Of a stretch of DNA of 33,109 nucleotides, positions 4,285 to 26,571 are shown in pieces. Source of the stretch: Acidobacteriota bacterium. GTDB lineage: Bacteria; Acidobacteriota; Terriglobia; Bryobacterales; Bryobacteraceae. The position numbers and the translations under genes are program-made. Location of the stretch: positions 1 through 33,109 of the forward strand of contig VFZY01000048.1 of the NCBI GenBank assembly GCA_016870915.1, read 5' to 3'. Below the pieces are notes generated by a model. That model had not been told where the DNA came from. It searched no databases and worked only from the letters and a program-made list of their open reading frames with translations. How positions within the stretch are numbered: the first letter of the stretch is position 1; each line of letters begins with the position of its first letter.

Positions 4285-4563
4285 TACCACCCACCTCGGA
4301 GAGGGATACAACATTTGTGGGAAAAATTGTTACGAATCCGCGCAAGTGTTGAAAAAAAAGAGATTTATAGAGTTTAGAATTTTGGATGCGTGAGAACGGA
4401 AGTGTGTTAGACTGAGATACCGCAGGCGTGTTGTGGCTCGAAGTGGACCAGTCAGTCAGCGGCTGCTGGGAGACACCCGCCGATTCCCCCGAACAGAACG
4501 GGATGATGTTTTTCCACAACCTGCGGAAAATATGTGGGATTCTTGTGGCCGGTTGATGGATCG
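4285..4563 (+). promoter_or_regulatory. dnaA upstream region, possible origin/promoter
   Basis: This non-coding stretch ahead of dnaA contains an A/T-rich tract (4347-4385, with a run of A and TTTATAG) that stands out against the GC-rich surroundings. It also holds TAGAAT (4375-4380), which resembles a -10 box, and DnaA-box-like sequences: TTTTCCACA at 4510-4518 (one mismatch to TTATCCACA) and, reversed, TGTGGGAAA at 4316-4324 (two mismatches). Together they suit a dnaA promoter and possibly part of oriC. The number of good boxes is small, so the origin assignment is tentative. Confidence 0.4.
4510..4518 (+). promoter_or_regulatory. DnaA-box-like site before dnaA
   Basis: TTTTCCACA differs from the consensus TTATCCACA at one position and lies about 45 bp before the chosen dnaA start. 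This suits DnaA autoregulation or origin function. Confidence 0.45.
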
Positions 4564-5868
4564 ATGAACATCTGGGAGCAGATTAAGAGCGAGTTGGGGC
4601 GGGAGTTGAACCCGGAGAGCTTTCAGAACTGGGTGGTTCCATCGCAGTTTGGGCGTCTCGAGGGGAGTTCCCTGCTGGTTTTTGTTCCGAACCAGGCCTC
4701 ACGGGAATGGCTCGAAGAGGAGTACGGTGATCGCGTGATGGGCGTGGTGCGCTCCCTGCGGTTTCCAGTGACGGAAGTCCGGTACGAGGTGGGAAACGCA
4801 CCCCCTCCGGAAACCGCTTTTGGGATGGAGCCAAGGTTCGCACCCCCTTCTCTCTATCTGAATGACCGGTTCAGCTTCGATTCGTTCGTCGTCGGCTCCT
4901 GCAATCAGTTCGCCCACGCCGCGGCTCTGGCTGTTTCCAAAGCGCCGGCGCGCCGCTACAACCCGCTGTTTATCTACGGTGGCAGCGGCATGGGCAAAAC
5001 CCATCTGATGCATGCCATCGGCCGCAGCCTGGTCAGTTCCTACGCCTCCATGCGCGTGGTCTACACCACCAGTGAGCGGTTCATGAATGAGATGGTGAGC
5101 AGCATCAAGCAGGACCGCATGCCGCAGTTCCATCAGCACTACCGTTCGGCCGACGTTCTGCTCATTGATGACATTCATATCCTGGCCGGCAAGGAACGCA
5201 CCCAGGAAGAGTTCTTCTATACGTTCAATGAACTCTACGAACACCAGAAGCAGATCGTCATCTCCAGCGATTCCGCGCCGAAGAACACGCCGGGGCTGGT
5301 GGAGCGGCTGAAATCGCGGTTTGAATGGGGGCTGATGGTGGACGTTCAGGCCCCGGATCTTGAGACCAAGATGGCCATCCTGGACAAGAAAGCCGAAGCC
5401 GAAGGCATTCACCTGCCGGAGGATGTCCGGATCTTCATCGCGACCAAAACCAAGTCGAACGTACGAGAACTGGAGGGCGCTCTCACCAAGCTGCTGGCCT
5501 ACTCCTCCGTGGCCAGCGTCCCCATCAACATTCACATGGCCCAGCAGGTGCTGCGGCACCTCTCGCACGGGAACGAAAAGCGGGTGAGCATTGAGTCGAT
5601 CGTGCGCGCCGTGGCGGAGAAGTTCCAGCTTCAGCCTTCGCAGTTGAAACAGAAGACCAACGCAAGGGAGATCGCCTACCCTCGCCAGGTAGCCATGTAC
5701 CTGGTGAAAGACCTCACCACCGCTTCGCTGCCGGAAATCGGGCGGGCGTTCGGTGGAAAGCATCACACCACGGTGCTACACTCCGTGCACAAAATTGAGC
5801 GGTTGCGGCAGAAGGACCCGGATTTGAACAAGATGATTCACAGCCTAACCGACTCATTACAAAGCTGA
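4564..5868 (+). CDS. dnaA: chromosomal replication initiator DnaA
   Basis: A 434-residue DnaA when started at the ATG at 4564 (MNIWEQIKSELG), which matches where family members begin; a GTG ten codons upstream at 4534 is an in-frame alternative. Domain I covers about residues 1-80 and the linker is short. The AAA+ domain starts near residue 99 (LNDRFSFDSFVVGSCNQFAH). Walker A is GGSGMGKT at about 139-146 and Walker B is VLLIDDIH with the Asp pair at about 202-203. Domain IV carries the DNA-binding signature KHHTTVLHSVHKI near residue 400, where most relatives have DHTTVLH. ATP-bound DnaA binds 9-mer boxes and melts the origin. dnaN and gyrB follow on the same strand, the usual order at bacterial origins. 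DnaA-box-like sites on both sides suggest autoregulation. Confidence 0.98.
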   Translation: MNIWEQIKSELGRELNPESFQNWVVPSQFGRLEGSSLLVFVPNQASREWLEEEYGDRVMGVVRSLRFPVTEVRYEVGNAPPPETAFGMEPRFAPPSLYLNDRFSFDSFVVGSCNQFAHAAALAVSKAPARRYNPLFIYGGSGMGKTHLMHAIGRSLVSSYASMRVVYTTSERFMNEMVSSIKQDRMPQFHQHYRSADVLLIDDIHILAGKERTQEEFFYTFNELYEHQKQIVISSDSAPKNTPGLVERLKSRFEWGLMVDVQAPDLETKMAILDKKAEAEGIHLPEDVRIFIATKTKSNVRELEGALTKLLAYSSVASVPINIHMAQQVLRHLSHGNEKRVSIESIVRAVAEKFQLQPSQLKQKTNAREIAYPRQVAMYLVKDLTTASLPEIGRAFGGKHHTTVLHSVHKIERLRQKDPDLNKMIHSLTDSLQS

Positions 5869-16275: not shown

Positions 16276-16324
16276 TAGGAGACTTGCTGGAAGGCCTGCC
16301 GTCAGTCTGGGCGCCGGCGCCCTG

Positions 16325-22672: not shown

Positions 22673-24499
22673 ATGAAGTATGACGTGGTGGTGGTAGGAG
22701 CAGGACACGCCGGCTGCGAAGCGGCCCGGGCAGCCGCGCGAATGGGAGCCCGGACAGCCCTGATTACAATGAATGCCGACCTCATAGCGCAGATGTCGTG
22801 CAACCCGGCAATCGGCGGTATCGCCAAGGGCCATCTGGTGCGTGAGATCGACGCCCTTGGCGGACTCATGGGGGAAGTAGCCGATGCAGTGGGTATCCAG
22901 TTCCGGCTGCTGAATGCCAGCCGCGGGCCGGCCGTCTGGTCGCCGCGTGCCCAGATGGACAAGCGGCGCTATCGGGAGAAGGTGAAAGAGGTGCTCGAGA
23001 AGGAGCCCAACCTGCGAATCCTGCAAGCTGAGGTGGCAAGGCTGATCGTGGAGGGTGGGGAGATTCAAGGGCTCTACCTGATGGACGGGCGGCGGGTCGC
23101 GGCACGGGGTGTGGTAATCACCACCGGGACCTTCCTCAACGGGCTGGCACATGTCGGGGAGTCCCGGTACAGCTGCGGCCGGAGCGGAGAGGCTCCCTCG
23201 GAGGTGCTTGGGACCCAGTTGAGAAACCTGGGATTGGGCTGGAAACGGTTGAAGACCGGTACACCCCCCCGGCTGGATGGGCGTACCATCGACTGGACAC
23301 GGTTTGAGGCCCAGGCAGGGGACGCCGAGCCAACGCCCTTCTCCTTCATGACGGAGCGGATCGAGCGTGAACAGATCAAATGCTACGTAGCCTACACCAC
23401 TCCCGAGACACAGGCCATCCTGCGGGAAAGCTTGGCTCGGTCACCGCTATACAGCGGACAGATTGAGGGCGTGGGCCCCCGGTACTGTCCATCGATCGAA
23501 GATAAGGTCGTGAAGTTCCCGGATCGGGACCGGCACCAGATATTCCTGGAGCCGGAGGGGCTCGATACGAATGAGGTGTACGTCAACGGCATGTCGACCA
23601 GCATGCCCATCGATGTGCAGGCCCGAATGATCGCGTCGATCCCTGGACTGGAGGACGCCGAGATGATCCGGCCGGGCTACGCCATCGAATACGACGCGAT
23701 GGACCCGCGATCGTTGGATCACGGTCTCGGGGTTCGTACAGTGCGGGGGCTGTACCTAGGCGGCCAGATCAACGGAACGTCGGGATATGAGGAAGCTGCG
23801 GCCCAGGGTCTGGTAGCGGGAATGAGTTGTGCGCTATATGTTGGGGGTCAGGCCGGCGTGGAAATTGAGCGGGATGAGGGATACGTCGGGATCATGATTG
23901 ACGACCTTGTCACGAAGGGCGCGGATGAACCGTATCGCATGTTCACGTCTAGAGCCGAGTTCCGCCTGCGGCTCCGAATCGATAACGCCGACGAGCGCCT
24001 GACACCGCTGGCCAGGAGGACGGGGTTGGTTGGCGACCAGCGGTGGGAGCGGTTTCAAGCGAAGGAATCTCAGAAGAAGGCAGTCGTTCGGTTGCTGGAA
24101 GAGACAAAATTCCGCATCGGTCAGGATAGCGTCACCGGGGAAGTGTGGCTGAGACGCCCGGAGGCCCGGCTCGCGGATAGGCGGGCGTGGGTGGAGGAGA
24201 CCCTGGGAACGGCGTTGATTGGGGGTGTCGCGGAAACCGTCGAAACCGAGGTGAAGTACGAGGGATATCTGGCGCAGCAAGCTCGGCAGGTGGAACGGTT
24301 GCAGGCTAGCGGCGAGGTCAGGATTCCGGCAGGCTTTGAGTACCACGGAGTTCCGGGCCTGTCGAGGGAAGTGTGTGAGCGGCTGGAACGGGTAGCACCG
24401 GCAACTCTAGGCCAAGCGGGCCGGATCCAAGGGGTGACACCGGCGGCTGTCGCGCTACTGGAGGTGTATCTCCGCACCAAGCGTGCGTTTCGAGGGTAA
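22673..24499 (+). CDS. mnmG: tRNA uridine-5-carboxymethylaminomethyl(34) synthesis enzyme MnmG (GidA)
   Basis: A 608-residue FAD enzyme of normal length. FAD binding is shown by [20 protein letters not shown]. The conserved block [48 protein letters not shown] and the [19 protein letters not shown] signature follow. The C-terminal helical region with [15 protein letters not shown] binds tRNA and the partner MnmE. The complex adds a carboxymethylaminomethyl group to U34 of several tRNAs. mnmG is commonly near oriC together with rsmG (gidB), parA and parB; here rsmG is missing and parS sites with parA follow directly. The coding strand is G-rich, in contrast to parA. Confidence 0.98.
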
Positions 24500-24500
24500 G

Positions 24501-24519
24501 GCGCAGATTTTTGCTGCGC
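24501..24519 (+). terminator. hairpin just after mnmG, possible terminator
   Basis: GCGCAG (24501-24506) pairs with CTGCGC (24514-24519) across a seven-base loop, one base after the mnmG stop. There is no T run behind it on either strand, so intrinsic termination would be weak. Confidence 0.3.
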
Positions 24520-24657
24520 GCGGTTCAGAGGTAGCGGTCGGAGCACGACTGTACGGCGTGCCAAGGGCGGCCCTGCAGTAGCAGGAGCGTGGAGGCGCAT
24601 GGGTAAGAGTGCGAGCTGGCCTCCCGCAGCCTTTCGCGACTCCGCGGAAACTTGATG

Positions 24658-24671
24658 GTTCCACGTGGAAC
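24658..24671. promoter_or_regulatory. parS site 1
   Basis: A perfect 14-bp palindrome, GTTCCACGTGGAAC, flanked by G on both sides. It closely matches the bacterial chromosomal parS consensus built around CACGTG, bound by the ParB helix-turn-helix. Confidence 0.9.
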
Positions 24672-24759
24672 GACGGATTGGAGCGCGAGTGAAGCGAAAC
24701 CGGATCCTGTGCTTGCTCCCCAGGATCAACCTTCATTGATCAGCGTCGGTCATAGGCTG

Positions 24760-24773
24760 GTTCCACGTGGAAC
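24760..24773. promoter_or_regulatory. parS site 2
   Basis: A second GTTCCACGTGGAAC, 102 bp after site 1, extended here to a perfect 16-bp palindrome (G before, C after). Confidence 0.9.
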
Positions 24774-24812
24774 CGTTGTTTGCAGCAGGTGGTCAATTCC
24801 ACCCCCCTGACG

Positions 24813-24826
24813 GTTCCACGTGGAAC
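24813..24826. promoter_or_regulatory. parS site 3
   Basis: A third GTTCCACGTGGAAC, 53 bp after site 2 and 50 bp before the parA start, close enough to influence parA transcription. Confidence 0.9.
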
Positions 24827-24876
24827 GAATTCAGGCAGCCCCGAGCGTGATACCATCCATAGAGAAAAGGACGTGA

Positions 24877-25662
24877 ATGGCAAAAGCAATTGCAGTCGCA
24901 AATCAGAAAGGCGGCGTGGGCAAGACCACAACAGCCATCAACCTCGCGGCCTCCCTGGCCGCAAGTGAGCTTAAAACCCTACTAATAGATATCGACCCCC
25001 AGGGCAATACCACCACTGGCGTCGGCATTCCCAAACAGGACCTGCCCGCCACCAGCTACGACGTCCTCATCGGAACTAAGGAAATCTCCCAAGCCATCCA
25101 ACCCACCGAATTCCAGGGACTTCACATCCTGGCGGCGGACAAAAATCTCGTCGCCGCCAACGTCGAACTCATCGACGTCGAAAACCGGCAAACTCGCCTC
25201 CGCGACCAGCTTGCCACCATCCGCGACCGCTACGACTTCATCATCATCGACTGCCCGCCCGCCCTCGACCACCTCACCCTCAACGCCCTCGTCGCCGCCG
25301 ACAGCGTCCTCATCCCCATCCAATGCGAGTTCTTCGCACTCGAAGGCGTATCTCAGCTCATCGATACCATCGACAGAATTCGGGAATCCCTGCACCCCAC
25401 CCTCGCCATCGAAGGCATCCTCCTCACCATGTTCGACGACCGCACCAACCTCACCCGCCAGGTCGCCGCCGACCTCAAGGATTTCTTCCAGGATCAGGTC
25501 TTTGACACCGTCATCCCCCGCAGCGTCCGCCTTGCCGAAGCCCCCAGCCACGGCAAGCCCGTGCTAGCCTACGACATGCGCTCGAAAGGCGCCGAAAGCT
25601 ACATCAAGCTGGCAAAAGAAGTCCTCGCGCGCTCAAACCGGACCCAGCAGGCAGGCCAGTAA
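24877..25662 (+). CDS. parA: chromosome partitioning ATPase ParA (Soj)
   Basis: A 261-residue deviant-Walker ATPase. It starts AKAIAVANQKGGVGKTT with the Walker A' Lys11 and Lys16, then LLIDIDPQGN (Asp38/Asp40) and the Walker B FIIIDCPPALDHLT. FFALEGVSQL and the C-terminal VIPRSVRLAEAPSHGKPV are also hallmarks of Soj-type chromosomal ParA. ATP-bound dimers coat the nucleoid, and ParB-parS complexes stimulate hydrolysis, which pulls the origin toward the pole. The ATG follows AAGGA with 5-bp spacing; the nearest parS ends 50 bp upstream. parB starts 12 bp after the stop. Third codon positions are overwhelmingly C, a sharp change from mnmG. Confidence 0.97.
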   Translation: MAKAIAVANQKGGVGKTTTAINLAASLAASELKTLLIDIDPQGNTTTGVGIPKQDLPATSYDVLIGTKEISQAIQPTEFQGLHILAADKNLVAANVELIDVENRQTRLRDQLATIRDRYDFIIIDCPPALDHLTLNALVAADSVLIPIQCEFFALEGVSQLIDTIDRIRESLHPTLAIEGILLTMFDDRTNLTRQVAADLKDFFQDQVFDTVIPRSVRLAEAPSHGKPVLAYDMRSKGAESYIKLAKEVLARSNRTQQAGQ

Positions 25663-25674
25663 GAAAGTCTCCCA

Positions 25675-26571
25675 GTGACCAAACCCATCGAAACCCGAAA
25701 AGCCCTCGGCAAAGGCCTCTCCGCCCTCCTCCCACAACGCCCCCGGCCCGTCGAGCCCGTCCCCGAACCCGCCCCATCCGCAATCAGCACGGCCACGGTC
25801 GCCCAGATCCCCATCACCCTCATCGACCCCAACCCGCTCCAGCCCCGCACCGTCTTCCAAGCCGACCGCCTCCAGGAACTCGCCGACTCCATCTCCCAGA
25901 ACGGCGTCATCCAACCCCTCATCGTGCGCCGCCAGGGCCCACGCTACGAACTCGTCGCCGGCGAACGCCGCTGGCGTGCCTCCCGCCTCGCCGGCTTCGA
26001 ACACGTGCCCTGCGTCATCCAGGACATCGCCGACGAACAGCTCATGGTCGTCGCGCTCATCGAAAACATCCAGCGCGAAGACCTCAATCCCATCGAAGTC
26101 GCGCAAGCCTATGAGCGCCTCATCCGCGAACTCAACCTCACCCACGAAGAGATCGGCCGCCGCACCGGTAAGGACCGCGCATCCATCACCAACATCGTCC
26201 GCCTGCTCCGTCTACCTAAGGATCTTCAGATCCTGGTAGCCGAACACCGCCTCTCCACCGGCGCGGCCAAAGCCATCCTCGGCCTGCCCACGGAGGAACT
26301 CCAACGCCAGGTCGCCGAAAAGACCGTCTCCCAGGGCCTCTCCGTGCGCGCTGTCGAACGCGCCGTCCAGGCCATCAACGAGCCCCGAACACCAAATTCA
26401 GAATCCGAGCCCGCAATCGACCCCAACGTCCGCGCCGCCATCGATGAACTGGAAAGAGCCCTCGGAACCCGCGTCCGCATCGTCCCCCGCGGCGACCAGC
26501 GCGGCCGCATCGAGATCGAATACTATTCCCAGGACGAACTCCACCGAATCTATGGCCAGATTGTCGGCTGA
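25675..26571 (+). CDS. parB: chromosome partitioning CTPase/DNA-binding protein ParB (Spo0J)
   Basis: A 298-residue protein starting at GTG (25675). The N-terminus KALGKGLSALLPQ is the usual ParA-contact tail. The CTP-binding/ParB-Nuc domain has ITLIDPNPLQPRTVF, LADSISQNGVIQPLIVR and VAGERRWRASRLAG. The central domain has LIENIQREDLNPIEVAQAYE followed by the helix-turn-helix LTHEEIGRRTGKDRASITNI, which reads parS. A Pro/Ser linker precedes the C-terminal dimerisation domain with RVRIVPRGDQRGRIEIEYYS. ParB loads on parS as a CTP clamp and spreads. The three parS sites just upstream of parA provide its target. parA and parB are clearly one operon. Confidence 0.97.
   Translation: MTKPIETRKALGKGLSALLPQRPRPVEPVPEPAPSAISTATVAQIPITLIDPNPLQPRTVFQADRLQELADSISQNGVIQPLIVRRQGPRYELVAGERRWRASRLAGFEHVPCVIQDIADEQLMVVALIENIQREDLNPIEVAQAYERLIRELNLTHEEIGRRTGKDRASITNIVRLLRLPKDLQILVAEHRLSTGAAKAILGLPTEELQRQVAEKTVSQGLSVRAVERAVQAINEPRTPNSESEPAIDPNVRAAIDELERALGTRVRIVPRGDQRGRIEIEYYSQDELHRIYGQIVG

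Follow-up and report, generated by a model that had tools for sequence, protein, structure and literature searches.

Three parS-type palindromes in the parA leader as the probable chromosomal centromere of a Bryobacteraceae bacterium

Three identical 14-nt palindromes precede parA in this acidobacterial contig, and we conclude that they very probably serve as parS, the centromere of a chromosomal ParABS system of canonical type. This reading is close to certain because of the sequence of the sites and their conservation. The coordinates of the region are presented in Table 1 and refer to the window, which is the whole stretch of 33,109 nucleotides analysed.

The three palindromes and the parAB genes

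We searched the window for GTTCCACGTGGAAC and found exactly three copies, with no other match in its 33,109 bases when up to three mismatches were allowed. The exact search agrees with the original prediction of three identical perfect sites within 170 bp, unique in the window and placed between mnmG and parA (Table 1). Under an order-2 Markov model, the exact sequence is expected by chance 0.0004 times in the window and 0.08 times in 6.61 Mb, and the only perfect 14-nt palindromes of the window were the three sites and a GC-rich one at 16309. The sequence is a C/G variant of the 14-16 bp parS palindrome of TGTTNCACGTGAAACA type, and the same string appears in nine papers, some of which deal with parS in other phyla, for example in M. 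xanthus and P. aeruginosa.

Table 1. Positions of the sites, genes and predicted signals around parA
Feature	Position	Strand	Basis
dnaA, ~20 kb upstream	4534..5868	+	PF00308 E 3.9e-68
mnmG (gidA), upstream neighbour	22673..24499	+	PF01134 E 4.2e-164
Terminator-like hairpin at mnmG end	24484..24505	+	consensus scan
parS1, perfect 14-nt palindrome	24658..24671	no strand	exact match
parS2, perfect 14-nt palindrome, 102 bp after parS1	24760..24773	no strand	exact match
parS3, perfect 14-nt palindrome, 53 bp after parS2	24813..24826	no strand	exact match
Predicted -35, AATTCA, poor consensus match, 17-nt spacer assumed	24828..24833	+	inferred from -10 position
Extended -10 element TGATACCAT, predicted parA promoter, hexamer at 24851-24856	24848..24856	+	position; conserved TGNTANNNT
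AAAAGGA, Shine-Dalgarno-like, before parA ATG	24865..24871	+	sequence reading
parA, 261-aa ParA/Soj ATPase	24877..25662	+	ORF; PF13614 E 1.5e-65 from residue 3
parB, 298-aa ParB	25675..26571	+	ORF; PF02195, PF17762, PF23552; PDB relatives 7bnk, 6sdk, 1vz0

The original prediction would have been refuted by many further copies round the chromosome. A genome-wide motif search did not find them: in the draft assembly of the same genome (6,612,146 bases in 367 contigs, 96.9% complete) the exact motif was confined to the same three copies in the parA leader, although an additional exact copy could have been missed because the assembly is incomplete. Among the matches listed, one site with a single mismatch was present (C5:4739), and we judged it a chance occurrence, since 42 one-change variants arising at roughly the Markov rate lead to the expectation of a few such sites per genome. 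Sites with up to two mismatches numbered 54, compared to 39 for the reversed control.

Palindromes with a CACGTG core serve other factors elsewhere, and the consensus scan that scored two terminator-like sites in the region (0.7 expected) gave such a score to 24758-24775. The three sites could on these grounds be operators of an unrelated factor, or a terminator, instead of parS. We give this explanation hardly any credence, as the same string is printed in the extracts on parS of other phyla, the motif stands beside parAB and mostly there alone in the order, and half-sites with GTTC and GTTT share the same position across relatives.

The genes directly downstream fit the parS reading. ParA is a Walker ATPase with an AAA_31 domain from residue 3, encoded adjacent to parB, and it carries no plasmid-type N-terminal DNA-binding extension. 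ParB possesses the N-terminal CTPase, helix-turn-helix and C-terminal dimerisation domains, all above the cut-offs. Its motifs GERRWRA and ENIQRED were both found and presumably form the CTP site. The nearest solved chains are ParB/Spo0J proteins, the closest by sequence being 7bnk_A, which we take to be the ParB of M. xanthus. The nearest named ParBs, found in records of Bryobacter, Bryobacteraceae and other Acidobacteriota, are at most 63% identical and place the genome among the acidobacterial Bryobacteraceae. The rsmG (gidB) gene is absent between mnmG and parA and was located on another contig (G000:C2:45133-45594); in many relatives the mnmG-parA gap of 500-900 bp leaves, by its length, room enough for rsmG.

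In Caulobacter ParB, residues R173 and G201 distinguish a parS-binding ParB from Noc, according to extracts of PMC7383237. The recognition helix GKDRASITNIVRLLR of the window ParB has the arginine and the glycine follows further on, which points to a protein of the parS type rather than the Noc type. Across the order, the equivalent of R173 was R in 99/99 loci and that of G201 was G in 97/99; these counts come from 110 loci, 11 of which were left out because they had no match to the strict motif. The equivalent of Q162, listed as a contact residue in the same extracts, was His in 81 of the 99 loci, the window ParB among them.

We infer from these features that ParB, a CTP-dependent clamp, most likely binds and loads at the three parS sites. 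Loaded ParB would close and slide along the adjacent DNA, and nucleoid ParA-ATP would move the ParB-parS complex and hence the surrounding chromosome region.

Conservation of parS before parA and position relative to the origin

We analyzed 120 genomes of the order, including that of the window, which alone represents its genus among the genomes compared. A ParB match was present in 112, and 110 loci were retained (109 relatives with a main ParB match at E < 1e-60, and the window). Eight of these were set aside since parA was not found or less than 300 bp of contig preceded it (G043, G044, G066, G076, G078, G092, G106, G113). The exact motif GTTYCACGTGRAAC was observed upstream of parA in all 102 order loci with at least 300 bp before the gene, with the nearest parS at most 200 bp from parA in 101 of them. 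With canonical parAB directly downstream and the exact motif restricted to this spot in the draft genome, this conservation bears out the original prediction that the sites are parS. The 102 genomes contain 254 exact copies, and 226 of these are located no more than 3 kb upstream of parA; in 87 genomes this is true of every copy. One to three copies per genome were found in 88/102, with a maximum of 11, and at least one exact copy was present in 110/120 order genomes.

In the rest of the phylum, we looked at the 29 loci with the best scores: 21 had the exact site ahead of parA, and the other eight, the only evidence found against the centromere reading, had none in the short stretch examined (400-750 bp). 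Among mostly Firmicutes loci, parS preceded parA in 12 of 14 among those listed, out of 60. Taken together, these counts make the arrangement widespread and ordinary. What the present analysis adds is the order-wide conservation of parS in a parA leader with an extended -10 element, together with a weak lead on a ParB residue and a parS base. Judged by titles and the opening lines of abstracts, no published account of acidobacterial parS was found among the papers listed, Livny 2007 lying outside that scope. For this order of soil bacteria, whose members are known mostly through metagenomes, the result provides a clearly defined centromere, as a rule with one to three parS fixed in the leader of parA.

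Some relatives carry expanded arrays before parA, counting exact and one-mismatch sites together: 13 in L088 (G020), 15 in L085 (G091) and 8 in L106 (G107), spanning 1.3 to 1.6 kb. In the G091 array, some parS are repeated together with their flanks. Genome G045 has extra parS distant from parA (C11:9658 and C26:28186), at most ~1 kb from other ParB-like matches, and these are perhaps mobile elements with the host's type of parS.

The centromere had also been placed about 20 kb from dnaA. This holds in the window, where the first parS lies ~20.1 kb from the dnaA start, and does not hold as a conserved property: in eight of nine nearly complete relatives the dnaA-parAB gap ranged from ~0.7 to 23 kb, with variable side and orientation. 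The remaining relative differs from these eight, with dnaA and parAB ~1.06 Mb apart (G008, C1). In addition to dnaA, the window of this draft assembly contains one strict-consensus DnaA box (4510) and no origin-like skew.

The GC skew of the window goes from +0.13 (1.5-kb bin from 22501) to -0.25 (bin from 25501), and third-position skew was lower in parA than in mnmG in 89/98 order loci. A change of sign at this place could suggest that the parS cluster is the replication origin itself. We consider this very unlikely, as an origin normally shows the opposite sign. In 28/37 mostly Firmicutes loci the skew likewise fell from mnmG to parA, so the step stems at least in part from the genes themselves. 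Moreover, when 20 places of 20 kb each were sampled in four genomes, three of the four relatives (G104, G008, G049; L285-L344) exhibited a strong skew that alternates in sign, also at a great distance from parS. The skew step was therefore ruled out as a mark of the origin. Genome G074 had only a weak negative-to-positive tendency across its parS region.

The alternating skew of G104, G008 and G049 is often common to genes on both strands and forms a mosaic unlike two simple replication arms. In the window, five plus-strand genes between 24877 and 31661, from parA to a glycosyltransferase, have strongly C-rich third positions and a coding-strand skew of -0.48 to -0.66; in the 15 measured genes to the left of this block, third-position skew was -0.19 to +0.25.

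The predicted parA promoter and possible ParB feedback

Reading the parA leaders of the order side by side, we first spotted TGNTANNNT, an extended -10 motif. It was present within 150 nt before parA in 93/103 order loci, compared to 6.4 in dinucleotide shuffles. Because a stricter scan for two consensus hexamers detected no sigma-70 promoter in this stretch, the promoter call rests on conservation. In 90/93 loci the closest parS precedes the last extended -10 match; in the other three (G046, G103, G108) the sole match is upstream of parS and may be due to chance. From the end of parS to the -10 hexamer, we measured 4 to 94 nt in these 90 loci, apart from one locus with 450. In 47/90 the distance was at most 23 nt, at which parS would overlap the predicted -35 or the spacer. 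For the window this distance is 24 nt, which leaves a single base between parS3 and the predicted -35; the parA start codon is 20 nt past the hexamer.

In 15/90 loci (including G014, G016, G018, G048, G050, G062, G064, G088 and G118), 6 nt separate the end of the hexamer from the start codon of parA, which is often TTG or GTG. This suggests that the parA mRNA would be leaderless or nearly so in these 15 loci.

Because parS3 is placed right beside the predicted promoter of parA, ParB that loads and slides there may modestly lower parAB transcription in a negative feedback. We consider such feedback plausible, with the balance close to even. The autoregulation put forward in the original prediction would fit the promoter geometry, and an action of ParB on parA transcription is an idea already published. 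In extracts of PMC11790492, repression was 4- to 5-fold with a KorB operator located 4 bp ahead of a -35; an operator 1.5 kb away repressed equally, and the authors call KorB alone weak. A proposal made for mycobacteria (PMC2346475, described below) also speaks for feedback.

Alternatively, the sites could serve as centromere only, with parS preceding parA through joint inheritance with the gene pair and ParB having no meaningful effect on parA, to which we would give slightly less than an even chance. The distance from parS to the -10 is variable and no helical phasing was detected (R 0.09, p 0.59 over 61 values of up to 60 nt, each genus and distance counted once), so that no fixed operator geometry is conserved, which counts against strong feedback. 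The three loci whose sole -10 match precedes parS and the negative sigma-70 scan count against it as well. The discussion of PMC11790492, as far as our extract goes, describes repression by sliding ParB as generally weak or nil, with weak exceptions, and in the extract of a review (PMC7022226) the influence of chromosomal ParB on genes nearby is given as weak or minor. Against a purely centromeric role stand the position of parS upstream of the extended -10 in 90/93 loci, over the -35 or spacer in about half of the 90, and the repression by KorB from near the -35, although it was equal from 1.5 kb. A phasing test on the spacings between parS sites gave R 0.22 and p 0.023 (79 spacings), a value that was not relied on, being one of several tests with kinship only roughly allowed for. 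For feedback by ParB, the compact layout, with centromere and promoter within ~200 bp, would offer an easy system in which to address self-control by a chromosomal ParB, a question on which the cited extracts report weak or mixed effects.

The variable base of the half-site, GTT[C/T]CAC, varies with the ParB residue six past a conserved Asn (184 in Caulobacter). In the 99 strict-motif loci, half-sites with C and T numbered 1 and 91 where this residue was Q or H, compared to 231 and 81 where it was R or K. Both traits were available in 95 loci: R/K was combined with C in 65 and with T only in 11, and Q/H was combined with T only in 18 and with C in one. On a tree of ParA and MnmG (98 loci, ParB left out), Q/H requires about three changes, with two or three independent switches only. 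Two independent pairs were found on supported branches (three on all), base and residue changing together in 1.6 on average, and in a few of 200 pairings one pair moved the opposite way. With only two supported independent pairs, or three at most, no test can reach significance.

The 11 loci without the strict motif, all of family f3, genus g42, have R/K with 2 C and 40 T, and go against the residue-184 rule beyond the family. Outside the order, C was combined with A, D or N in L182, L189, L203 and L180, and L185, L188, L191, L193 and L196 had R or K and only T. We therefore rejected a residue-184 code as a general rule. A narrower proposal would have ParB and parS of Bryobacteraceae co-evolving through this residue, Q/H going with GTTTCAC and R/K allowing or favouring GTTCCAC as in the window (Arg/Lys-G versus Gln-A recognition), with the same sites acting as operators for direct ParB feedback on parA; we regard this combination as rather unlikely. 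Because half-sites with GTTC and GTTT occur naturally alongside different ParB residues, they form a ready set for the analysis of drift in ParB-parS recognition.

Comparison with known systems

Four systems described in the papers cited below, compared here from extracts of these papers, are closest to the arrangement of the window. Myxococcus xanthus shares the printed sequence GTTCCACGTGGAAC and the clustering of sites upstream of parA, but its 22 sites occupy 3 kb at a distance of ~4 kb upstream of parA (PMC3899335), whereas the window has three sites within 170 bp, the last of which ends 50 bp before parA. Bdellovibrio bacteriovorus likewise has few parS (two) upstream of parAB, which in that species are drawn near the origin, and its ParA and ParB levels are regulated; this regulation is linked to the predatory cell cycle, and the extracts make no mention of an overlap with a promoter (PMC10547168).

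In Mycobacterium bovis BCG, parS lies on the promoter elements of gidB beside the par genes, and competition between ParB and RNA polymerase at the promoter overlapped by parS was proposed (PMC2346475). The same paper cites an earlier suggestion that ParB at a promoter-near parS modulates parAB. There, however, the gidB -10 is overlapped, whereas parS3 of the window stands just before the predicted -35 of parA, and rsmG (gidB) lies elsewhere in the genome of the window. Finally, KorB of RK2 is also a clamp-forming CTPase of the ParB family that represses from a promoter-near operator, but it represses distant plasmid promoters together with KorA (PMC11790492).
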